Part shown: positions 2,034 to 56,526 of the stretch, piece by piece
Layout of the letters: each line of letters opens with the position of its first letter
Numbering within the stretch: the first letter of the stretch is position 1
Assembly (NCBI RefSeq): GCF_000970205.1
Contig: NZ_CP009512.1
Location: 1,798,001 to 1,862,000 of the forward strand
DNA from: Methanosarcina mazei S-6
GTDB lineage: Archaea > Halobacteriota > Methanosarcinia > Methanosarcinales > Methanosarcinaceae
Length of the DNA: 64,000 nt
Reading direction: 5' to 3'
Made by a program: the position numbers and the translations under genes
Notes under the pieces: model-generated
Databases searched by the model: none
What the model saw: only the letters and a program-made list of their open reading frames with translations
What the model was told of the DNA's origin: nothing

Positions 2034-2942
2034 GTGTATGTTTTGATAACACCTGTAAAAGATGAGGACAAGCTTCTTCAAGACGTAGCTGCATCCGTAA
2101 TAAATCAGACTGTAAAGCCTGTCCTCTGGTTAATTATTGATGACGGAAGTACAGACAGCTCTCCAAAAATAATACACAGTCTTGTGTCCAGGTATTTCTG
2201 GATAAAAACCATACGTTTGCCTCCCCATACCAGAGACATAATTTTTCACGTATCTTATGTGTATAAAACCGGGTTTGATTTCGCATTGAGTTATTGCGAG
2301 AGGAACAATATTGACTATAATTTTATCGCTTCAATAGACTCGGATACCATACTTGAAGAAGAATATTTTGAAAAAGTAATAAGAGAATTTGAAGCCAATA
2401 AAAAACTGGGAATTGCGAGCGGGGGATTATACCATGAAATTGATGGAAAATTAAAGCTTTCCGGGCAGGCTGAAAACTTCCCTTCAGGTACAGGAAGAGT
2501 ATGGTCAAAAGAATGTTTTTTCGATACTGATGGCTTTTCCTTAGAACCCTCTGCGGATTCGATCTCAAATGTGAAAGCCATACTCAGAGGCTGGCAAATC
2601 CAGAGGTTTAACGAAATCCAGATGGTAGAAAAAAGATTAACAAGCAGTGCCGAAGGCTTGTGGAAAGGATACAGGTACAACGGATACATGGCTTATTATT
2701 TAAATAAAAATCCGGTATTAATACTGCTAAATGTATTGAATTACACTTTAAAGAGACCGCATTACACAGGAGTGGCCTTTTTACTCGGATATATAAAGCC
2801 AGTAATTAAAAAAGAAGAACGAATAAAAGATATCGAAATTCGGGAGTATTACTGGAGTTACAGGTTAATCGAATACAAAAAACTGGTACACAGGAGAATG
2901 AAATCCCTGGTTTCCGCAGCTGAAACAGCTCAACTTAAATAA
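2034..2942 (+). CDS. Family 2 glycosyltransferase
   Basis: A 302-residue GT-A fold glycosyltransferase. The nucleotide-sugar binding region includes the acidic DDGSTD (residues 36-41) and a DSD metal-binding motif at 102-104 (IASIDSDTIL). No membrane segment is evident, so it is probably a cytosolic or peripheral enzyme transferring a sugar to a glycan or lipid carrier. The start is a GTG at 2034, preceded by TTGAGGGGG around 2014-2020; the ATG at 2023 is out of frame. It faces away from the flippase gene and is followed directly by a 16-bp tandem repeat. Donor and acceptor are unknown. Confidence 0.85.
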   Translation: MYVLITPVKDEDKLLQDVAASVINQTVKPVLWLIIDDGSTDSSPKIIHSLVSRYFWIKTIRLPPHTRDIIFHVSYVYKTGFDFALSYCERNNIDYNFIASIDSDTILEEEYFEKVIREFEANKKLGIASGGLYHEIDGKLKLSGQAENFPSGTGRVWSKECFFDTDGFSLEPSADSISNVKAILRGWQIQRFNEIQMVEKRLTSSAEGLWKGYRYNGYMAYYLNKNPVLILLNVLNYTLKRPHYTGVAFLLGYIKPVIKKEERIKDIEIREYYWSYRLIEYKKLVHRRMKSLVSAAETAQLK

Positions 2943-2958
2943 GATTTCTATCTAATTG

Positions 2959-3054
2959 TATTTTGTTCAAATAATATTTTGTTCAAATAATATTTTGTTC
3001 AAATAATATTTTGTTCAAATAATATTTTGTTCAAATAATATTTTGTTCAAATAA
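2959..3054. repeat. Six tandem copies of a 16-bp unit
   Basis: The unit TATTTTGTTCAAATAA is repeated six times without mismatch, starting 17 bp after the stop of the glycosyltransferase. The length is not a multiple of 3 and the array is AT-rich, so it is not coding. It belongs to a set of short arrays in this window that lie just behind genes. Confidence 0.95.
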
Positions 3055-3242
3055 TATGGCAGTGTCGCGAATTTGTTGTAAATTCCAGGTTAATTTTTTG
3101 GAGACTGTATGCGGAACTAATTTACCGACCTCGAATTTTTGACTCAAAAACTTCTTAAATTTGTAATTTTACAGAAAAATTGGCACACTGCCTTCAAATA
3201 CGTTACAAAAAATTTTTACACGACATTGAAAGTGTTAGTAAT

Positions 3243-3605
3243 ATGAAAATACTTCAAATCCTCTCCCGCCTCTATGTAGCCGACCTTAATCCCGCTCTCG
3301 AATTCTACGAGGAACTCCTCGAAACTCCTGTGGCTATGCGTTTTGAAATCCCGCAAACAGGCGTGGAACTGGCTCAGATAAGTACTATTTTGCTTATAGC
3401 TGGCTCTGAAGAGGCTCTGAAACCATTCAGAAACACACAGGCTACGTTTCTTGTTGATTCTCTCGATAAGTTCAAAACTTTTCTTGAAGAAAATGGAGCA
3501 GAAATCATCCGGGGACCTTCAAAAGTTCCGACAGGCAGGAACATGACGGTAAGACATTCAGACGGGTCGGTGATAGAATATGTGGAGCATTCAAAAATAG
3601 AGTGA
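3243..3605 (+). CDS. VOC (glyoxalase/dioxygenase fold) family protein
   Basis: A 120-residue protein beginning MKILQILSRLYVADLNPALEFYEELL, a typical start of a vicinal oxygen chelate domain: strand, then a helix with FYEELL. The end, GSVIEYVEH, contains the usual last strand with a Glu metal-ligand position. The open frame extends upstream to a TTG at 3180, but the ATG at 3243 gives the normal domain start. Members range from glyoxalases to antibiotic-binding proteins; with only one domain and no partner gene, the substrate is unknown. Confidence 0.75.
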   Translation: MKILQILSRLYVADLNPALEFYEELLETPVAMRFEIPQTGVELAQISTILLIAGSEEALKPFRNTQATFLVDSLDKFKTFLEENGAEIIRGPSKVPTGRNMTVRHSDGSVIEYVEHSKIE

Positions 3606-3737
3606 AAAACCCGTAATTCACTGAATAATCATTGGTGGACTTGCAGGCATAATATCCATTATTCAGGCTCCTACAGTAAATTAAAAGTTTAGAAATACTT
3701 ATTTTTTTAATTAACCTATTTTAAACGTTTTTTTATG

Positions 3738-3831
3738 ATAAGTATATTTATATTTAATCCAATCAATATTTAAATCAGCAATTAATAGATCCCCTATCTA
3801 TGAGCAATTCCATTTAATAGAATGGAATTGC
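3738..3831 (+). promoter_or_regulatory. Promoter and leader hairpin of the YKDG-repeat secreted protein
   Basis: A TATA-rich core at 3738-3760 (containing AAGTATATTTATATTTAAT) is identical over 22 bases to the core at 7613-7634 upstream of the other small secreted protein. About 45 bp further the leader carries a perfect 11-bp hairpin: GCAATTCCATT (3804-3814), loop TAATAG, AATGGAATTGC (3821-3831). A purine-rich GGGAGTAGGG precedes the ATG at 3864. The TATA function is inferred from archaeal promoter spacing. Confidence 0.6.
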
Positions 3832-3863
3832 CATTTCATTGAATTGAACCGGGAGTAGGGTTT

Positions 3864-4190
3864 ATGGAAAATAAGAAATTCACTAAAATAAAAAAGACTC
3901 TTGCTATTTTGCTGGTACTGTGTTTCGCTCTGTCAGTGATAGCTGCGCCAGCAACCGCAGCTTCTAATAACAAAGGCTATAAAGACGGTTATAATAAGGG
4001 ATATAAAGATGGCAAAAAACAGAGCGACAAAGATTGTAAACAATATGGCAGCATGGAAAACCTCCTGAAAATTCCCGCGCCTGTCCTTAAGGATAGCTGG
4101 AAAAAATCCTATAAAAATAGTTACAGAAAAGGCTACGAAAAAGGATACATAGACGGCTATAATGGAAATAGATATTTATGTTTGAAATAA
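3864..4190 (+). CDS. Small secreted protein with YKDG/YxKGY repeats
   Basis: A 108-residue protein with a clear Sec signal peptide: basic start, hydrophobic stretch LAILLVLCFALSVIA, and likely cleavage near residue 32 (ATAA/SNN). The mature part has two blocks of Gly-Tyr-Lys/Asp repeats (GYKDGYNKGYKDG near residues 38-50, and YRKGYEKGYIDGYNG near 90-104) separated by a linker with one Cys. The regular Tyr/Gly/Lys spacing suggests a surface, scaffold or ligand-binding protein, but no known family was recognised. Its promoter core is shared with the gene at 7009, and its 3' end is triplicated (4177-4227). Confidence 0.75.
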   Translation: MENKKFTKIKKTLAILLVLCFALSVIAAPATAASNNKGYKDGYNKGYKDGKKQSDKDCKQYGSMENLLKIPAPVLKDSWKKSYKNSYRKGYEKGYIDGYNGNRYLCLK

Positions 4191-4227
4191 GATTGTGTTT
4201 GAAATAAGGTTATGTTTGAAATAAGGA
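4177..4227. repeat. Three 17-bp copies of a gene 3' end including the stop
   Basis: Units at 4177-4193, 4194-4210 and 4211-4227 share the core TGTTTGAAATAAG. The first unit contains the last codons (Cys-Leu-Lys) and TAA stop of the secreted protein; two more copies follow directly, with 2 to 3 changes each. Confidence 0.9.
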
Positions 4228-5034
4228 AGAAAATTTTCGAAAACCTGAATTTTCAAACATAAAAATATGCGTCCTTTTTAAGCACTGATACTTCACTTAT
4301 CAGGATGCTATTTTATTCCCTCTTTTTTTGTTTAGAGCATAGAATACTCAAAGAATTTTATCCGCTCTATCCTTAACAGAATCTAATAAAGAAAAGTTTC
4401 TATAATTAAGTTATATTAAAATTTTTGGTAATATATAACCTGCATTAATTCGTAATTCGTATCAGGTTTTTTGGATTGTATTTTTACGATGTTATAAATT
4501 CAGATCATAATATGTTTCATATAAATATAAATAATATGAACGAAATGAATTCATAAACTCAATAGAATACAGTAAATATCGAATGGGGATTGGAGAAGGC
4601 TATAAAATTAAAGAGCTGCAGGCATGCGCAAGAATATCAGTGAACTTGGGTTAAGTTTATCAAACTTATCCCGACATAAACATTATTTATAATCGACATC
4701 AGTTAGACACCTTATCATAACAGAAACTTATGATTATTTCTAATTGAGAATCAATATAATATTGAATCTGAAATAGCCCGTGCTAAAAGAGACAATTTAA
4801 ACGTGACAGTAATAACAACACCAGGGTTAAGTTATTGAATGAGGGAGAGGGGACAAGCCGTATTACGCAAAAAAACAGCAGGTTCAAAAAAAGGATGTTA
4901 AAACATGTATTTTGAATGCAGGTAATTTTGAATCCGACAGTGCCCTGTATTTGAATTGATGCAAAGAAATTTCATACTCGCAGTTTTAGCACATAATCCC
5001 CTAGACCCAATTTACATATTGAATTCAGGGGGAA
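4228..5034. other. Intergenic, AT-rich, one hairpin, no convincing gene
   Basis: About 800 bp without a supported gene. A near-perfect hairpin lies at 4648-4672 (GGGTTAAGTTT, loop ATC, AAACTTATCCC, one mismatch) inside a possible 22-codon frame starting ATG at 4624. A purine-rich site (AGGGGGAA) at 5028-5034 is the likely ribosome binding site of the next gene. Confidence 0.5.
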
Positions 5035-13582: not shown

Positions 13583-15040
13583 ATGCTTACACGTGAAGAG
13601 ATTCTTATCATTTATGACGCTGGTCCTGAAGCTGTAATTTCTGTAATCCAGAGGCTTGAGACTATCATAGAAGAACAATCTATTCGTATTGCTGAACTCG
13701 AAGAACGTGTAAAGGTATTAGAATCTCGTTTAAACCAAAACAGTCGTAACAGCAGTCGCCCTCCTTCTACTGATTTTTTTATCAAGGAGAAACCTAACCC
13801 CAAGAGTCTCCGTAAAAAGAGTGGCAAAAAACCTGGAGGTCAAGATGGTCATCCAGGAACAACTCTTGAAATGGTTGATCATCCTGAGTAGGTAATAGAA
13901 CATTCTTTGAGTTGCTGCAAAGAATGTGGCCATACTCTTGAGAATGTTGAAGTTGAAGCCTATGAGAAAAGACAGGTCTTTGATATTCCTCCTGTAAATC
14001 TGATTGTTACAGAACACAAAAGTCAGATAAAGACCTGCCCTTACTGTGGAAAAATAAATAAAGCTGTTTTTCCTGAATCAGTTAAATATCCAGTTCAGTA
14101 TGGTCCAAATATTTTAGCTTCAGCTATTTACTGTAAAAATCACCATTTTATCCCCTATGAAAGAATTTCCGAATTTTTTGAGGACATAATGGGAATAAAA
14201 ATCTGTCCTGCTACGATAATTAGAGCAGAAAGAGAATGTTTCCAGAATTTAGAGGAATTTGAAAACGTTATTAGAGAGAAGTTATTAGCCTCGCCTGTAA
14301 TCAATTTTGATGAAACTGGTATGAAGATTGAAGGAAAAAGACACTGGCTTCATGTAGCTTCTAATGAGAAATACACCTGTTATTTACCTCACTCAAAAAG
14401 AGGAGCAGAAGCAATAGACGCTATGGGTATTCTTCCGGAGTTTAAGGGAGTAGCAGTTCACGACGGATGGAAACCTTACAACGTTTATGACTGTGATCAT
14501 GCTCTCTGTAATGCTCATTTACAGAGAGAACTTACTGGAATTGAAGAGAACTATAAACAGCAGTGGGCTAAAGAAATGAATGAATTGCTCACTGAGATGA
14601 AAAAGTATACCGACGAATGCAAGGATCAAGTCAAAGAACTGGATTTTGAGCAAATTAAAGCATTGGAAGAAAGGTTCGATGCTATCATAATTAAAGGAAT
14701 TGAAGAAAATCCACAATCTCTAAATCCTGAAAAGAAAGGAAAACGTGGAAAAAATCCAAAAACAAAAGCAAGGAATCTGCTAGATAGGTTTATAGAACAC
14801 AAAGAAAATATTCTGAGATTCCTGACAGATTTGAAAGTTCCGTTTGAGAATAATCAAGCAGAAAGAGATATCAGGATGATGAAATTACAGCAGAAAATAT
14901 CAGGAACTTTCAGAACTATACAAGGAGCGGAAGCTTTCTGCAGAATTAGAGCTTACATCTCTACAATTAGAAAGAACGGATTACCTGTTTTGGAGGGTAT
15001 TATAGCGGCGCTCAAGAGAGCGCCGTTAACTATACCCTGA
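13583..15040 (+). CDS. tnp: IS66-family transposase with in-frame UAG (probable pyrrolysine)
   Basis: The reading frame is 486 codons if TAG at 13889-13891 (codon 103) is read as pyrrolysine, giving 485 residues. Before it lie a coiled start and the IS66 segment SRPPSTDFFIKEKPNPKSL. After it, in the same frame, come the zinc-binding domain (CCKECG and CPYCGK), a DDE catalytic core (NFDETGMKIEG, AVHDGWKPYN, NNQAERDIRMMK) and the end at a TGA. Conventional calling splits it into 102 and 377 residue pieces; neither alone has both the N-terminal DNA-binding part and the catalytic core. The second copy at 27493 has UAG at the same aligned codon. Confidence 0.9.
13900..13927 (+). promoter_or_regulatory. 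Stem-loop 8 bases after the UAG codon (copy A)
   Basis: ACATTCTTT (13900-13908) and AAAGAATGT (13919-13927) form a perfect 9-bp stem with a 10-base loop. It lies where PYLIS elements have been proposed in Methanosarcina genes. It also encodes His-Ser-Leu and the Cys-Lys-Glu-Cys zinc motif, so part of its conservation is coding. Confidence 0.5.
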
Positions 15041-18118: not shown

Positions 18119-20755
18119 TTAAACTCCCTTAAAATAATGCCCTGTCGTATATTCAATCCCTCTTGCAGGCTTCAATTTTACCTCTTCTCCTGCAATAGCC
18201 TGTTTATACACTTTTGTAATCTCTTTTACCTCGGTAGGGGTATTGAGCGAAAGGTCAAGCCTGAGCACGTCCACGCCGTACCCTTTCATATTCTTAACAT
18301 ACTTCAGCATATCAAGTACCTTCGAATTATAGATCAGAGTTCTGGTGCCAAGGCGCTGGACAGGAAATTCGGAGCCACTCTGATCGACAAGGAGTACCTC
18401 GCTTTCTTTTCTTATCATCTTCCTGTCAACAAGGGGCTTTAAGAGGTCATTTTCCGTAATAAGCATCAATTCCCTGCCGTAAACTAAAACTTCGGTCTGG
18501 CCTGAAACCTCACATGCCTGGAGCGTCTCACAGACGTTTTTTATTTCGCTCAGGTTCAGTTCGCTCGAAAGGGTTACCCTGTATGCACCTGCCTGGTAGA
18601 AGGTGCTTGCAGTAAAGGCATTGAAGATATTGAGATCTTTCTGGGCAACAAAAGGTATGGAAAGCTTTTTTGCAAGCTGTGATGCTCCCAGATTTGAACA
18701 TGCCACTGTAAAACCAGCGTCTCTTACTTTTTCCAGAAGGGGTTTTAATCCCCCCAGTTCCCGATCGTGCGTAATTCTGGGGATCCTGAAAACCAGTTCT
18801 GTTTTTTCTGCTTTCAAATCCTCAAGCCTATCAGCACTGTTGGGAGACATCAGTACTTCAAAGAAAGAAATCGGGATATAAGCAATATCAGCCCCGGCTG
18901 AGGCTGCCTGCAAGAGAGAAGGAATATTCTGCACTTCAACGCTCAGAAGGAGTTTCTTTGAAGCTGTGTCTCTTAACCCTCTCCCTTCCTTTTTCATGCC
19001 GACTGCACTTATCCGGGCTGCTTCATTTTTACTCCCGGCATCGCCTTCTAAAGAGCACAGGTGATTGAAACCTTCCAGGTCAGGGCATTTTTGCTCTTTT
19101 TTATTTGTCTTCAGGATTTTTTCGAGCAGGAGATCAGCAGCCTTTCGCCTCGTATTCTTCAGCACGCCGACAGGGATAAAGATATTTTCATCAGCTTCTA
19201 TCTCAACTGAAGCGGCTTCAAAAGGAGTGTCTCCAAGGCTCTCCATTGCTTTTCTTATCTGCTCTTCGGTTGTTGGCGCTTTTTCAGCTCTCTGGACGAT
19301 ATAATCATCAGCAAATTCCGCATAAGAGGTATCTTCGGTTTTGCTGCCTTTTTCTTTTTCTTCTCTTTTTTCTTTTTCTTCTCTTTTGTCGATTTCCTTT
19401 CTTATCTCGACCGCAAATTTCTCTCCCTTCCTGGCATTTGCCCTCAGGCTTACAGGGATAGTTTTCAGTTTTGTTTTCTGGAGGGTATCAAGGAGCTGCG
19501 TGTCTGTTGTGAGATAGAGTTCATCTCCTCTCTGGACTGCTCTGCCTGTTTTTGAACTTATCTCAAGCCCGACTTTCTCGCCTTTTTTTGCACTTTTTAC
19601 GTGCTCGCCTGAAATAGTGACAATTCCGGTTACTGCAGAGCCAAGCATCCTTTCTCTTGTAAAGATGCTTATGCCGTCTTTTACCTGAATATTCTCTTCA
19701 AGCCGGACTGTAAGTTTTGTACTTCCTTTTGAGCGGGAAATGTCCAGGACTTTCCCAAGGAACGCCCCATAATTTGAGCTGTATTTGGGATGAGATACTC
19801 CTTTTTCCCCCAGTATGAAGCCCCTGGTAAATCCCCTGTAAAAAAGTTTTGCAAGCTCGGCTTCCCCCGCTTCAAGCTCCGCCCTTGTAGGTTTTTCTCC
19901 ACGGGTGCAGATCTTTTCAACTGCGGTTTTGTAAGCGGCAGCACTTGCAGTCACATATTCGGGTTTTTTCATCCTGCCTTCAATTTTAAGGCTTACAACT
20001 CCGGTTTTTATTATGTCTTCAATCCCTGTGAGGGTGGAAAGTTCGGCACAGCTTATGGGATAGCTGCCTGCGACATATTTTTCGTCAATTTCCCTATCGT
20101 TTACCAGAAACCTGTACCTCCGTCTGCACGGCTGGGCACAGGCTCCCCTGTTTGCGCTTCTGTCGTGCAGGAAACTGCTGAAGAGGCATTTGCCCGAGTA
20201 GGAATAGCAGAGGGCTCCGTGGACAAAGACTTCAATATCCACTCCAGAGTTGTCTACAATATCTTTTACCTCAGCTGTGGTGAGTTCCCTTGAAACTATC
20301 ACCCTTTTTGCTCCCAGCCCCGCTACAAAGTCAACTCCTTCTTTGCTGTGGATGGTCATCTGCGTGCTTGCGTGAAGGCTCAGGTCAGGATAGATTTCGT
20401 TTAAAAGCCTGAGAAGCCCGAGGTCCTGCAGGATAACTGCATCTATCCCGGCTGCGTATGCACGGTCCACAATATCAAGGGCATGCTGAAGTTCTTTTTG
20501 TTTGAGAGGGATGTTCAGGGCAAGGTATACACGGACTCCGTGCGAATGTGCAAGGTCAACGGCAGCTTCCAGGTCATCAATGGTGAAATTTTTAGCTCCC
20601 TGACGGGCATTGAATTCGCCGACCCCAAGGTAGACAGCATCAGCTCCTCCTTTTATCGCTCCAAGCAGGGCTTCATGATCTCCAGCAGGAGAAAGGATTT
20701 CCGGGGGAGTACAGATTAAATTTTTAGCATATATATCAGGTATTTTAGCAGACAT
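18119..20755 (-). CDS. U32 family peptidase with C-terminal collagenase-like domain
   Basis: An 878-residue cytosolic protein. The N-terminal half is a TIM-barrel U32 domain starting PEILSPAGDHEALLGAIKGG and holding the family signature EVFVHGALCYSYSGKCLFSS and GACAQPCRRRY (about residues 175-210), whose Cys residues are cluster ligands in RNA-modifying relatives. A DUF3656-like region follows, then a charged insertion (KREEKEKREEKEKG near 460) and a second barrel-like half. Relatives include YhbU and the 23S rRNA hydroxylation factor RlhA, so RNA modification is as likely as proteolysis. It is monocistronic. Confidence 0.88.
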   Translation of the reverse strand: MSAKIPDIYAKNLICTPPEILSPAGDHEALLGAIKGGADAVYLGVGEFNARQGAKNFTIDDLEAAVDLAHSHGVRVYLALNIPLKQKELQHALDIVDRAYAAGIDAVILQDLGLLRLLNEIYPDLSLHASTQMTIHSKEGVDFVAGLGAKRVIVSRELTTAEVKDIVDNSGVDIEVFVHGALCYSYSGKCLFSSFLHDRSANRGACAQPCRRRYRFLVNDREIDEKYVAGSYPISCAELSTLTGIEDIIKTGVVSLKIEGRMKKPEYVTASAAAYKTAVEKICTRGEKPTRAELEAGEAELAKLFYRGFTRGFILGEKGVSHPKYSSNYGAFLGKVLDISRSKGSTKLTVRLEENIQVKDGISIFTRERMLGSAVTGIVTISGEHVKSAKKGEKVGLEISSKTGRAVQRGDELYLTTDTQLLDTLQKTKLKTIPVSLRANARKGEKFAVEIRKEIDKREEKEKREEKEKGSKTEDTSYAEFADDYIVQRAEKAPTTEEQIRKAMESLGDTPFEAASVEIEADENIFIPVGVLKNTRRKAADLLLEKILKTNKKEQKCPDLEGFNHLCSLEGDAGSKNEAARISAVGMKKEGRGLRDTASKKLLLSVEVQNIPSLLQAASAGADIAYIPISFFEVLMSPNSADRLEDLKAEKTELVFRIPRITHDRELGGLKPLLEKVRDAGFTVACSNLGASQLAKKLSIPFVAQKDLNIFNAFTASTFYQAGAYRVTLSSELNLSEIKNVCETLQACEVSGQTEVLVYGRELMLITENDLLKPLVDRKMIRKESEVLLVDQSGSEFPVQRLGTRTLIYNSKVLDMLKYVKNMKGYGVDVLRLDLSLNTPTEVKEITKVYKQAIAGEEVKLKPARGIEYTTGHYFKGV

Positions 20756-27492: not shown

Positions 27493-28926
27493 ATGAAACG
27501 TGATGAGATTCTTTCTTACTGTGCTTCAAATCCTGAAATTATTGTAGCTTACATTGAGAGTTTAGAATCTCAAGTTAAAGAACTCACTGAAAGACTTGTA
27601 GCCTTAGAATCTCGTTTAAATCAAAACAGTCGTAACAGCAGTCGACCTCCTTCTACTGATTATTTTGTCAAAGAGAAACCTAATCCCAAGAGTCTGCGTA
27701 AACCAAGCGGGAAGAAACCTGGAGGTCAGGAAGGTCATCCAGGCACGACTCTTGATATGGTTGATCATCCTGAGTAGGTAATAGAACATTCTTTGACCTG
27801 CTGCAAAGAATGCGGATCTACCCTTGAGAATGTTGAAGTTGAAGCTTATGAGAGAAGACAGGTCTTTGACATTCCTCCCGTAAATCTAATTGTTACAGAA
27901 CATAAAAGTCAGATTAAAACCTGTCCTTGTTGTGGAAAGTTGAATAAAGCCGTTTTTCCCGAATCAGTGAAATATCCGGTTCAGTATGGCCCTAATATTT
28001 TAGCTTCAGCTATTTACTGTAAAAATTACCAGTTTGTTCCTTATGATAGAATTTCTGAGTTATTTGAAGACATTATGGGAATAAAAATCTGTCCTGCTAC
28101 GATAATTAGAGCAGAAAGAGAATGTTTCCAGAATTTAGAGGAATTTGAAAACGTTATTAGAGAGAAGTTATTAGCCTCGCCTGTAATCAATTTTGATGAA
28201 ACTGGTATGAAGATTGAAGGAAAAAGACACTGGCTTCATGTAGCTTCTAATGAAAAATACACATGTTATTTTGCTCATACAAAAAGAGGAGCAGAAGCAA
28301 TAGATGCTATGGGAATTCTTCCGAAGTTTAAGGGAGTAGCAGTTCATGATGGATGGAAACCTTACAACGTTTATGATTGTGATCATGCTCTGTGTAACGC
28401 TCATTTACAGAGAGAACTTACAGGAATTGAAGAGAACTATAAACAGACATGGGCTAAAGAGATGAATGAACTGCTCACTGAGATGAAGAAATACACTGAT
28501 GAGTGTAAAGAGCAATTAAGAGAACCTGATTTTGAGCAAATTAAAGCATTGGAAGAAAGGTTTGATGCAATTATCATTAGAGCGCTTGAAGAAAATCCGC
28601 ATTCTCTAAATCCTGAAAAACAGGGAAAACGCGGTAAAAATCCAAAAACAAAATCAAGGAATCTGCTGGATAGGTTTATAGAACACAAAGAAAAGATTCT
28701 GAGATTCCTGACAGATTTGAAAGTTCCATTTGATAATAATCAGGCAGAAAGAGATATCAGGATGATGAAACTACAGCAGAAAATATCGGGAACTTTCAGA
28801 AAAGCAATGGGAGCGCAAGCTTTCTGCAGAATTAGGGCGTACATTTCTACAGGAAAAAAGAACGGTTTACCTGTTTTAGAGGGTATTCGTGCGGCGCTCA
28901 TAGGAGCGCCGTTAACTATACTCTGA
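27493..28926 (+). CDS. tnp: IS66-family transposase with in-frame UAG (probable pyrrolysine)
   Basis: 478 codons including stop, 477 residues if TAG at 27775-27777 (codon 95) is read through. It has a shorter N-terminus than copy A (MKRDEILSYCASNPEIIVAY) but the same order: coiled segment, SRPPSTDYFVKEKPNPKSL, UAG in the context HPE-UAG-VIEHSL, zinc motif CCKECG/CPCCGK, and catalytic residues in NFDETGM, AVHDGWK and NNQAERDIR. The protein is highly similar to copy A after the UAG while synonymous sites differ, which argues for selection on the full-length frame. Confidence 0.9.
27787..27812 (+). promoter_or_regulatory. Stem-loop after the UAG codon (copy B)
   Basis: CATTCTTT (27787-27794) pairs with AAAGAATG (27805-27812), 8 bp, with a 10-base loop that differs from copy A (GACCTGCTGC against GAGTTGCTGC). 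Position relative to the UAG is the same as in copy A. Confidence 0.5.
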
Positions 28927-51014: not shown

Positions 51015-52187
51015 ATGAGAAAAGAGCCTTATGATTTCCCGCTGGATGATTACATCTCAAGAGAGGAATTTAATAAAATCAAAAAATTCTCGCGGGATAA
51101 AGAAACACCGTTTTTGATCGTCGACCTTCAAAAGATCGAACGAAGCTACGACGAACTTGTAGAGCATATGCCTTTTGCAAAAATACATTATGCTGTTAAG
51201 GCGAATCCTTTAGATAAGGTAGTGCTTGCCCTGAAGAGAAAAGGTTCCAATTTTGATGTGGCGACCATTTACGAGCTTGACCAGTTGATAAGGCTCGGGG
51301 TGGAACCTGAGAGGATAAGTTACGGGAATACAATAAAAAAAGAAAAAGACATAGCTTATGCCTATGATAATGGAGTAAGGCTCTTTGTTACGGATTCCGA
51401 AAGTGATTTGAAAAAATTAGCCAGAAGAGCTCCAGGTTCCAGAGTCTTTTTCAGGATTCTTACGGAAAGTGATGGTGCTGACTGGCCCCTTTCCAGAAAA
51501 TTCGGCTCCCATCCTGACCTGATATATAAATTGATTTTAAAAGCTGAAAAGCTCGGGCTTGAACCTTACGGTCTTTCCTTCCATGTAGGCTCCCAGCAGA
51601 GGGATATAGGACAGTGGGACAATGCAATTGCCAAGTGTAAATATCTCTTTGAGGCAGTAGCTGAAAAAGGAATCCATCTGAAAATGATCAACCTCGGTGG
51701 AGGCTTTCCTGCAAAATACCAGTCTCAGGCGCATGACCTTGAAACATATGCACATGAAATCCGCCGCTTTTTGCATGAAGACTTCGGGGAAGAGCTTCCT
51801 GAAATTCTTATCGAACCGGGCAGGTCTCTGGTTGCCGATGCGGGCATAATCGTAAGTGAAGTCATTATGATCGCAAAGAAGGCAAGGTTTAACCAGTACA
51901 AATGGGTTTACCTTGACATAGGAAAGTTTGGCGGCCTCATCGAAACCCTTGACGAATGCATCAAATATCCAATTTTCTGTGATAAAAAAGGATGTGCAGA
52001 AGAGGTTATACTTGCAGGCCCGACATGCGACAGCATGGATATTCTTTACGAGCACCATAAGTATTCTTTTCCCCACACCATGAGAGACGGCAACAGGGTG
52101 TATATTTTCACTACCGGAGCCTATACCCAGAGTTATAGCTCCATCTGTTTTAATGGCTTCCCGCCCCTGAAAGCCTATGTTATCTAA
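51015..52187 (+). CDS. Fold-type III PLP-dependent decarboxylase (ornithine/arginine/DAP family)
   Basis: 390 residues. PLP lysine Lys62 in HYAVKANPLDK; phosphate and substrate loops SFHVGSQQ, NLGGGFPAKY and EPGRSLVADAG; and the C-terminal active site GPTCDSMDILY with Cys typical of ornithine decarboxylases. It lacks the longer insertions of DAP decarboxylase (lysA). The most likely role is formation of putrescine or a related diamine in the cytosol, as a polyamine step. ATG 51015 follows AAAAGGGAG. A hairpin at 52259-52278 lies behind it. Confidence 0.88.
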   Translation: MRKEPYDFPLDDYISREEFNKIKKFSRDKETPFLIVDLQKIERSYDELVEHMPFAKIHYAVKANPLDKVVLALKRKGSNFDVATIYELDQLIRLGVEPERISYGNTIKKEKDIAYAYDNGVRLFVTDSESDLKKLARRAPGSRVFFRILTESDGADWPLSRKFGSHPDLIYKLILKAEKLGLEPYGLSFHVGSQQRDIGQWDNAIAKCKYLFEAVAEKGIHLKMINLGGGFPAKYQSQAHDLETYAHEIRRFLHEDFGEELPEILIEPGRSLVADAGIIVSEVIMIAKKARFNQYKWVYLDIGKFGGLIETLDECIKYPIFCDKKGCAEEVILAGPTCDSMDILYEHHKYSFPHTMRDGNRVYIFTTGAYTQSYSSICFNGFPPLKAYVI

Positions 52188-52258
52188 AGGGCATCTGCCC
52201 TTTTATTTCTATTTTGAAATAGCTATTCCTGTCTGAAATTTTTCCTTATTTTTACTAC

Positions 52259-52278: not shown

Positions 52279-52395
52279 TTTATGTCCTGTTAAATGTTTT
52301 AAACCGAGCAAAATATATGTTGAGATAAAATCTTTAGATGGCAAATTATTTTTTGAATCGGTTATGATATATATTTTTATGCTGTTATAGAGTAC

Positions 52396-52485
52396 GCACA
52401 GGTTGGGAGCAAACGCATTTTCTCTCAATCTTGCGGGGTTGGATCATCTTAGGGGTCTGGCTAAAAAGATCCCTATTCACTATGA
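52396..52485 (+). ncRNA. Putative small RNA, copy 1 (diverged)
   Basis: The promoter at about 52350-52374 (TTTTGAATCGG then GATATATAT) is nearly identical to those of copies 2 and 3. The RNA would begin about 25 bases after the TATA box. The first stem is GTTGGGAG with CTCTCAAT, held by G-U pairs; the linker GGGGTTGGATC is shared with the other copies; then GGATC (52441-52445) can pair with GATCC further on around a loop with TAGGGG. Ends are estimates. No open frame is supported. Confidence 0.5.
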
Positions 52486-52837
52486 ATGGCATTTATCCTC
52501 AAATAAAGAAACAAAAAACAGACATGAAATTCTTCGACAACAGGCGCAAAAAATGAAAGTCAGAAGTACTTTCATGCCAGGAAAACCAGAAAACAAAAAT
52601 CCGTATATTTTTTTCATTTTCACTTATATATCGGGCTTTTTACATTTTCGTTCTTAACTTTTTTCCTTCAACTTTTTTTAATAAAATAATAGAATATCCA
52701 TTTCATTTATTCATTTTATTTTTTTGCTATTAAATATTTTTACCGGAAATAAATTTTTGATGGGATTAAAAAAATCTATCATCATGGATATTTTTAATCG
52801 GTGATGATATATATGTCTACATGATTATAAAACGGAT

Positions 52838-52935
52838 GTAGATTGAGAGTAATAGGGTTTCCTCTCAATTTCGGGTTGGATCGCGGGTAGGGACCTCGAG
52901 AATAGGGACTCGACCCCTGCCCATCTGCTTCTAAA
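52838..52935 (+). ncRNA. Putative small RNA, copy 2
   Basis: A TATA box GATATATAT at 52806-52814 is preceded by AATCGGTGAT. Hairpin 1: ATTGAGAG (52842-52849) with CTCTCAAT (52862-52869). Linker TTCGGGTTGGATCGC. Hairpin 2: GGGTAGGG (52885-52892) with CCCTGCCC (52915-52922), and inner stem TCGAG/CTCGA, loop AATAGGGA. About 90 bases are closely similar to copy 3, with a G-U in place of a Watson-Crick pair. The 3' end, near CTTCTAAA, is an estimate. Confidence 0.65.
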
Positions 52936-53187
52936 TCAGTTATTTTCAAACTAATATTAAGCTTGATTATTACTTTTTTTATACTGTTCTGTTTTTGATA
53001 AGCTTTATGACAGCACATCATTTTAAAAATCTGTACTATTCTTTCAATTTTATATTTTATTAAGAAAAATATTTTAATATCATTGAAACTTTCAATTCTG
53101 GAAAAATCATTAAATTCAGATGAATTTTATGTTACTAACACTTTTTTGAATCGATTATGATATATATCTCGATAGCATTATGAAAAG

Positions 53188-53286
53188 TGCGTAGATTGAG
53201 AGTATAGGGTTTCCTCTCAATCTCGGGTTGGATCGCAGGTAGGGACCTCGAGAATAGGGACTCGACCCCTACCATCTACTTCTAAA
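53188..53286 (+). ncRNA. Putative small RNA, copy 3
   Basis: TATA box GATATATAT at 53159-53167, preceded by TTTTTTGAATCGATT. Hairpin 1: ATTGAGAG (53195-53202) with CTCTCAAT (53214-53221). Hairpin 2: GGTAGGG (53238-53244) with CCCTACC (53267-53273), inner stem TCGAG/CTCGA and loop AATAGGGA. The TAC stem base replaces TGC of copy 2 and restores full pairing. It ends near CTTCTAAA like copy 2. Confidence 0.65.
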
Positions 53287-54022: not shown

Positions 54023-55474
54023 TTATACTTTTACGTTCTCTCTTGCCCATTCTGCACCGGCTTCGAGCATCTGCTGGTTAAAAGCGATAACTCTGGGTTT
54101 GCCTGCAAAGTTTTCGGCAAGAGCTCCTTTAAAGGCTTCTTCTTCAAGCCCTGTTGCGTTAAGGCCAAGCAATACGCCGAGCATGAACGAATTTGCAGCC
54201 CTTTCATCGCCCGCTTCTTTGGCTTTTTCGGTTGCAGGGACTGAAACAGCTTTTACACCTTCAGGGGTCTCGGCTTCCCCGATGGTTGAGTCATAAAGGA
54301 TAAAGCCTCCTTTTCTTACAGCTCCTTCGAACCTTTCCAGAGAGGGGCGGTTCATGGCTATAAGGATGTCAGGTGTGTAAACCGTAGGAGAGCCTATGGG
54401 CTGTCCTGAAATCATCACCGAGCAATTTGAAGTCCCTCCGCGCTGTTCCGGTCCGTAGGACGGGAACCAGGAAGCGTTGAGGTTTGCTTTAACCCCTGCC
54501 TGCGCAAGGACAATGCCCATACTCAGGACCCCCTGCCCTCCGAAACCTGCAATCTTGGTCTGGATAGGGGCAAAGTCAGCTCTGACAGGTTTTTCTCCGG
54601 CATCCGCTTCAATTCCGTAAAGCTTCTCAAGGGATTCGGTTGTGAAATCGCTGACCCCGCGGTAAAGAGGTTCGGTTGATTCGAAATCGTCCCTGAAATT
54701 CCTGAGAGGGAATTCCTTTTCCATCTCTTCGTTTATGAAACTGACAGCCTGCTCTGCGTCCATCCTGAGGTTGGTAGGGCAGGCTGCAAGGACTTCTACA
54801 AAAGCATAGCCTTTGCCATCGCGCTGGACTTCAAGCGCTTTTCTAATGGCTTTTCTTGCTTTTCTAATGTGGGAGATATCCGAGACCGAAACTCTTTCAA
54901 TAAAAACCGGAGCCTTCAGGTTGTCCAGAAGCTCGCACATATGAAGGGGATAACCTGCAAATCTGGGATCGCGGCCTTCAGGGGTTGTTGTTGTCTTTTC
55001 CCCTATCAGGGTCGTGGGAGCCATCTGTCCGCCCGTCATGCCGTAAACGGTATTGTTTACGAAAAAGACTGCAATCTTTTCTCCCCTGTTTGCTGCCTGC
55101 AAGGTCTCGTTAAGTCCGATTGAAGCAAGGTCCCCGTCACCCTGGTAGGATATAACCACAGCATTCTCTTCAGCCCTTGAGACGCCTGTACCAACTGCAG
55201 GGGCACGCCCGTGGGCTACCTGGATGTTGCCGGTATCAAAGTAATAATAAGCAAAGACCGCACAGCCCACAGGGCTTATCATAACTGTCCTGTCCTGTAT
55301 CCCGAGGTCGTCAATTGCCTCGGCAATGAGCTTATGCAAAACCCCGTGACCGCAGCCAGGGCAATAGTGGGTGGCTGTTGAGGCTGCCCCTCCTTTGCGG
55401 GGATAGTCCGAATACAGCGCATTTGGCTTCCTTATAACCTTTTCTCCGTTGATGATTTCTGCTGCCATTTTCAT
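54023..55474 (-). CDS. vorA: 2-oxoisovalerate:ferredoxin oxidoreductase, fused beta (TPP) and gamma subunits
   Basis: 483 residues. The N-terminal TPP domain carries [41 protein letters not shown] (the GDG...N TPP-Mg motif) and [18 protein letters not shown]. The gamma domain from about residue 305 has [19 protein letters not shown] and [15 protein letters not shown]. Fusion of these two subunits is known for the three-subunit methanogen VOR. With VorB and VorC it interconverts branched-chain 2-oxoacids and acyl-CoA using ferredoxin and CoA. The start ATG overlaps the vorB stop by 4 bases (ATGA), so translation is coupled. Confidence 0.88.
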
Positions 55475-56526
55475 GCCTCCCCTGAAATCTTTCTTATCCT
55501 GTCCATGATCTGGTCGAGAGTGATAAGATTTCCTCCCATACGGTTTACCAGTTCAACAGGCCTTGAACAGCCGATAGCAAGCCTGATGTCGTCTATCATC
55601 TGCCCGTTGCTCATCTCCACTGAGATAAAAGAGCACCCTTTATCCGCGAGGGCTTTCAACTGCGCCTCCGGGAAGGGGAAAAGTGTCTTTGGCCTGAAAA
55701 GTCCGACTCTGATTCCTTCCTGCCTTGCAAGGTCAACCGCCGACCTGCAGATCCTGCTGCTTATCCCGTAAGAAACAAGCACTATTGAGGCATCTCCGGT
55801 CATGTATTCTTCGTAATCTACCTCATTCTGTTTTATCAGCTCGTACTTTGCCTGAAGCCTCTCATTGAAGGCTCCGAGTTCATTAAAGTCCAGGAAGATT
55901 GAGGTTATCAGGTTAGGTCTTGTTTCGGCTGTGCCGTTAACTGCCCAGCTTGTGTCGATTTCCGGGTTGAGTGCTTTCTTCGGGAACTCAAGAGACTCGA
56001 TCATCTGCCCGAGAACTCCGTCAGCGAGTACAACTGCAGGGTTCCTGTATTTGAAAGCAAGTTCGAAGGCTTTCATGGTAAAGTCGCACATCTCCTGCAC
56101 GGAATTGGGGGCAAGTACGATGTTTTTGTAGTTCCCGTGCCCCCCGCCTTTCACGACCTGGTTGTAATCTGCCTGTTCAGGTCCTATGTTTCCAAGCCCG
56201 GGACCTGCTCTCATAACATCTATAACCACGCAGGGAAGTTCTGCACCTGCCAGGTAAGAGATACCTTCCTGCATCAGGCTAATTCCCGGACCTGAAGAAG
56301 ATGTCATTACCCTGTGGCCTGCTGAGGCTCCCCCGTAGACCATATTGATTGCAGCCTCCTCAGACTCTGCCTGCACGAATTTTCTTCCTATCATGGGGAA
56401 ATATTTGGAAGCATCGTGCAGAATCTCACTTGCCGGAGTGATGGGGTATCCGAAGAAACAGTCGCATCCGGCATAAAGTGCACCAACAACTATTGCGGAG
56501 TTGCCTTTTATGAGTTGTGTTGCCAT
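55471..56526 (-). CDS. vorB: 2-oxoisovalerate:ferredoxin oxidoreductase, alpha subunit
   Basis: 351 residues with the POR alpha-type pyrimidine-binding domain: [29 protein letters not shown], of which YPITPASEI is the hallmark; [32 protein letters not shown]; and domain II from [13 protein letters not shown]. It lies 19 bp after vorC and overlaps vorA. Similar alpha subunits occur in KorA, but the three-gene set with a beta/gamma fusion favours Vor. Cytosolic. Confidence 0.88.

Follow-up and report, generated by a model that had tools for sequence, protein, structure and literature searches.

The question raised by this locus is what is encoded between a decarboxylase gene and a convergently oriented ferredoxin oxidoreductase gene of Methanosarcina mazei, where three similar blocks follow one another in tandem without an evident protein product. 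The window (i.e., the whole 64-kb stretch of DNA that was analyzed) had been given a preliminary description in which these blocks were read as small RNA genes that arose by duplication. Our analysis supports and extends that reading: structural covariation, a shared promoter, and recurrence across most genomes of the genus all bear on it, and the units almost certainly constitute a family of structured RNA genes.

To locate the units, a consensus and a covariance model were built from 59 distinct aligned copies, and the full 64 kb was searched using cmsearch with filters off. Exactly three units were returned, all on the + strand and each where the preliminary description had placed it (Table 1); the next-ranked matches were the opposite strand of the same three units, and no other unit was found at an E value of <0.1. 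A repeat search recovered the same three units. Local alignment scores were 40.5 for unit 1 versus unit 2, 43 for unit 1 versus unit 3, and 105 for unit 2 versus unit 3, compared with a best score of ≤23 among 300 dinucleotide shuffles per pair. The units had been said to lack a common protein frame, which agrees with a consensus RNA devoid of ATG and with conserved stretches that hold TGA, TAA, and TAG.

Table 1. Features of the three units and their neighbors (positions within the window)
Feature	Position	Strand	Evidence or remark
Upstream neighbor, ornithine/DAP/arginine decarboxylase family gene	51015-52187	+	PF02784, PF00278 on ortholog; syntenic in genus
Promoter block, unit 1	52358-52374	+	BRE/TATA, TCGGTTATGATATATAT; exact family-motif match
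Unit 1, diverged copy	52394-52486	+	cmsearch 35.5 bits, E 6e-6
Unit 1, hairpin 1	52400-52431	+	
Unit 1, linker GGGTTGGATC	52436-52445	+	
Unit 1, hairpin 2	52450-52475	+	
Promoter block, unit 2	52798-52814	+	One mismatch to family motif
Unit 2	52834-52934	+	cmsearch 98.6 bits, E 6e-20
Unit 2, hairpin 1	52841-52870	+	
Unit 2, linker GGGTTGGATC	52873-52882	+	
Unit 2, hairpin 2	52886-52922	+	
Promoter block, unit 3	53151-53167	+	Exact family-motif match
Unit 3	53187-53285	+	cmsearch 108.6 bits, E 4e-22
Unit 3, hairpin 1	53194-53222	+	
Unit 3, linker GGGTTGGATC	53225-53234	+	
Unit 3, hairpin 2	53238-53273	+	
Downstream convergent neighbor, 2-oxoacid:ferredoxin oxidoreductase subunit, korB-like	54023-55474	-	PF01558, PF02775 on ortholog; syntenic

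Unit 1 had been singled out as diverged, and this proved correct: it retains the promoter, the linker, and a 10-bp first stem with G-U pairs, while both loops differ (fold z score, -3.2). Unit 1 is a relic of the GGATCATC subfamily; in several relatives, the unit nearest the decarboxylase gene on its downstream side has diverged as well. The extent proposed for the family, ending at position 53286, holds in that all three + strand units lie within it, but a weakly conserved T-rich tail continues beyond this point and additional copies occur outside the window, at G000:C1:1908516, 3796671, and 1748699 of the same genome (detected by BLASTN and the covariance model).

In the RNA predicted for the main subfamily, hairpin 1 has 9 bp and loop UAAUAGGGUUUC; after a single-stranded linker (GGGUUGGAUC) comes hairpin 2, which is bipartite (7 bp plus 5 bp) and has loop AAUAGGGA. 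On the consensus structure, 94% of cells are paired, and when the partner is displaced by one column, only about half as many cells remain paired. Both hairpins covary: two-sided changes were observed in 12 of 24 pairs among the 59 copies, a count reached by none of 500 shuffles, which bears out the earlier observation that changes in the stems keep pairing. Across paralogs and species, the stems drift with compensation, whereas the columns of the loops and linker are invariant or nearly so in the same set of copies. Read on the - strand, the G-U changes would become A-C mismatches, which points to the + strand as the RNA sense. A lower helix (P1, GUAG/CUAC) was also considered; as only 72% of its cells pair, it is not claimed.

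An AUAGGG-like motif is found in each hairpin loop, with UAGGG recurring in stem 2. The exact AAUAGGG is common to both loops in the main subfamily, whereas other subfamilies share the GGG core only. Of the six occurrences of the linker GGGTTGGATC in the 4.1-Mb genome, five are inside units.

Each unit is preceded by a near-identical block, as the preliminary description had noted, and hairpin 1 begins ∼25 nt past this block in all three cases. When ≤1 mismatch is allowed, the block is found at five sites genome-wide, every one of which precedes a unit. Since the block is exclusive to the units, we regard it as the dedicated promoter of the family, in keeping with the common control that had been suggested. 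When 59 copies that include the promoter were aligned, most of TCGGTTATGATATATAT proved 90 to 100% conserved, and conservation was high over a TTATAA element ∼15 nt downstream of the BRE/TATA block; the ∼10 nt ahead of the predicted start show low conservation. The RNA part is then mostly 80 to 100% conserved up to CTACTTCTAA, after which conservation decays in the T-rich tail. For unit 3, the predicted start is at ∼53187, ∼26 nt past the TATA center, and conservation begins and ends with the unit plus its T-rich tail. Outside the promoter and RNA, conservation falls. The lack of both covariation and conservation beyond the promoter block had been named as grounds against an RNA gene family; both are present, the RNA part being as conserved as the promoter.

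Within Methanosarcina, the covariance model detected the RNA in 29 of 31 genomes, the copy number per genome ranging from 1 to 14 over several places; BLASTN detected copies in 27. An order-wide covariance search of 186 genomes found it in 3 of 27 genera, namely, Methanosarcina and two more genera of the Methanosarcinaceae; the other 24 genera gave no match. In an independent collection, all named records with the RNA belonged to Methanosarcina, Methanosarcinaceae, or unplaced euryarchaeal bins, and the viral contigs searched yielded none. None of the 4,227 families of Rfam 15 scored at its gathering threshold on the units, and the best subthreshold match between positions 52200 and 53500 had an E value of >1. 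Elsewhere in the window, two PYLIS_5 elements (the pyrrolysine insertion sequence of a transposase) scored far above the Rfam gathering score, at positions 13889 to 13988 and 27775 to 27874.

A literature search with the unit sequences retrieved no paper. A 2009 catalogue of M. mazei lists 199 intergenic sRNAs, as cited in PMC3432209, and individual copies may already be among them; what is new is therefore the description of the family rather than each transcript.

The copies fall into subfamilies A (GGATCGCAGGTAGGG, with loop 2 AATAGGGA), B (GGGGTTGGATCATCGATAGGG), and C (GGGGTTGAATCACA), the last of which is found alongside B at a second site. Small arrays of stripped relatives were also observed in one genome (L186, G022:C3, positions 2500 to 4760 and 18500 to 18900); these comprise hairpin 1 and a GGGGTTGGATCAC-type linker only, without hairpin 2 and without the promoter block. 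Gene order at site 1, the site in the window, is amino acid permease, decarboxylase, units, and convergent korB/korA; at site 2, units lie between a gene for a FilR1-like regulator and an FmdE-like gene. Both sites are conserved into a second genus (G110). At site 3, the units are convergent with a LysE-type exporter gene, near which units alternate with HisKA_2 sensor kinase genes at three loci (L180, L183, and L184; G020 and G018). We do not claim an association with the kinases because orthologous sites are not independent. Head-to-tail pairs of units without a second promoter occur in at least 8 genomes, and at site 1 in many species.

In the model that we propose, the window would carry three paralogous, free-standing sRNA genes of ∼95 to 100 nt each, transcribed from the + strand with putative starts at ∼52395, 52834, and 53187 and ends at the T-rich tail. 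The family very probably acts in trans, and all copies would serve one common partner. This last proposal follows from two patterns: the ∼150 copies keep the same loops, and across paralogs the stems vary while the loops and linker stay fixed. The partner could be an RNA-binding protein that recognizes GGG-containing loops and is titrated by the RNAs, in which case the dose would be set by the number of paralogs and by head-to-tail dimers within one transcript. We rate such titration as the most likely mechanism, with at best an even chance of being correct. It is slightly favored over pairing with mRNA because both loops show the GGG motif, because units have been multiplied within transcripts as well as between loci, and because none of the leaders examined contained a conserved site of complementarity.

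The family could instead comprise trans-acting sRNAs whose loops or linker base pair with mRNA leaders or another sRNA, masking ribosome binding sites or changing stability, with the paralogs providing redundancy and dose. We treat this as a realistic second explanation, nearly as likely as titration, since base pairing has been reported for sRNA162, sRNA154, and sRNA41 and our target search covered a limited set of leaders. In PMC3510493 and PMC5867862, pairing is the only mechanism shown for Methanosarcina sRNAs, and the multicopy Yfr2 sRNAs of cyanobacteria offer a precedent (PMC6778093). The predicted structure leaves the invariant loops and linker exposed, and invariant loops fit pairing with a conserved RNA equally well. 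The searches, however, yielded no conserved site among the leaders examined: those recurring 13-of-14 matches to the loop 1 complement that were checked fall within coding sequence or on the strand opposite, and the single extra genomic match to the linker is away from gene starts. In a duplex scan of neighbor-gene leaders, the one outlier (korB leader; z score, -2.4) maps to korA codons, and no covariation between it and the sRNA was seen. On the - strand mRNA at ∼55516 to 55537, korA codons upstream of korB complement loop 1 over 12 to 14 nt in many species (GGAGGAAACCTGATTACC type). This complementarity is attributed to protein conservation, no covariation having been seen.

Titration of a loop-binding protein retains its slight preference, and the remaining explanations fare far worse. 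One of these is mimicry of the 3′ end of 16S rRNA, in which an AGGG-loop hairpin followed by UUGGAUCA(C) would serve as a decoy for Dim2/Pno1 and Nob1. The organism's own 16S rRNA ends in ...CCGTAGGGGAATCTGCGGCTGGATCACCTCCT (L194), and the hairpin is followed by GGATCAT, GAATCAC, or GGATCAC in subfamilies B and C and in the stripped G022 copies. The common string is only 6 to 8 nt long, however, the hairpin spacing differs, subfamily A has GGATCGC, and no anti-SD sequence follows, which leaves mimicry improbable.

More improbable still is a cis-acting leader, such as a riboswitch or attenuator, controlling the downstream genes. Structure and conservation would suit such an element, and at several sites the units adjoin genes for an amino acid permease, decarboxylase, LysE, or AzlC transporter. 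Yet the units have their own promoter, and the downstream gene is convergent for 74 of 94 units; where it is on the same strand, it lies a median of 622 nt away and differs between sites, so that no gene is consistently downstream. With downstream genes mostly convergent or distant, we conclude that the units are independent genes and not riboswitches. The least probable reading, a mobile or repeated MITE-like element whose palindromes merely resemble RNA hairpins, would account for the 1 to 14 copies scattered over several places per genome, but synteny of the sites extends throughout the genus and, for sites 1 and 2, even to the second genus (G110), the compensatory changes favor pairing in a + strand RNA, and a promoter at fixed distance belongs to the unit.

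To our knowledge, the mode of action has been established for only a small number of archaeal small RNAs, and few of these RNAs are recognized as families whose structure is statistically supported. The present family is multicopy, near-universal in a genetically tractable genus, and equipped with its own dedicated promoter.

Among known systems, sRNA162/sRNA171 of M. mazei resembles the family in being intergenic in Methanosarcina and duplicated, with a conserved promoter and stem loops set apart by a single-stranded linker. That RNA is 191 nt long and has three stem loops, its variable linker measures 39 nt, its locus is flanked by an ArsR-family gene and MM2442, and M. acetivorans and M. 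barkeri have one copy each (PMC3510493). The family described here, by contrast, has a predicted length of ∼100 nt, with two hairpins, an invariant linker, and ≤14 copies at other loci; on comparison with the published description, identity was rejected because locus, length, and architecture differ. Like our units, sRNA154 is structured, forms two stem loops, and belongs to Methanosarcina. It has an NrpR operator (GGTA-N6-TACC) in its promoter (PMC3177094) and a single locus, MM3337/MM3338 (PMC3177094, PMC5867862), whereas the family here has several loci under a promoter block exclusive to it. The operator has no match anywhere in the 64-kb window, and with locus and promoter also differing from those in the published description, identity with sRNA154 was likewise rejected.

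Closest in style is the Yfr2 family of cyanobacteria, a multicopy sRNA family with two to nine genes per genome, a conserved exposed motif, and nonconserved loci (PMC6778093). No sequence relation to Yfr2 is expected. In mode of action, the proposed titration can be likened to CsrB/RsmZ, although this comparison extends only to repeated hairpins that expose the same G-rich loop motif and does not imply CsrA here. CsrB and RsmZ are bacterial protein-titrating RNAs that present a GGA motif to their partner CsrA. It is conceivable, though doubtful, that the family represents a CsrB-type system in archaea, the first of its kind there: a dosage-controlled, multigene, multiunit sponge for a Methanosarcina RNA-binding protein that recognizes GGG hairpin loops. 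If the family is indeed a protein sponge, global posttranscriptional control by titration would exist in archaea, too.
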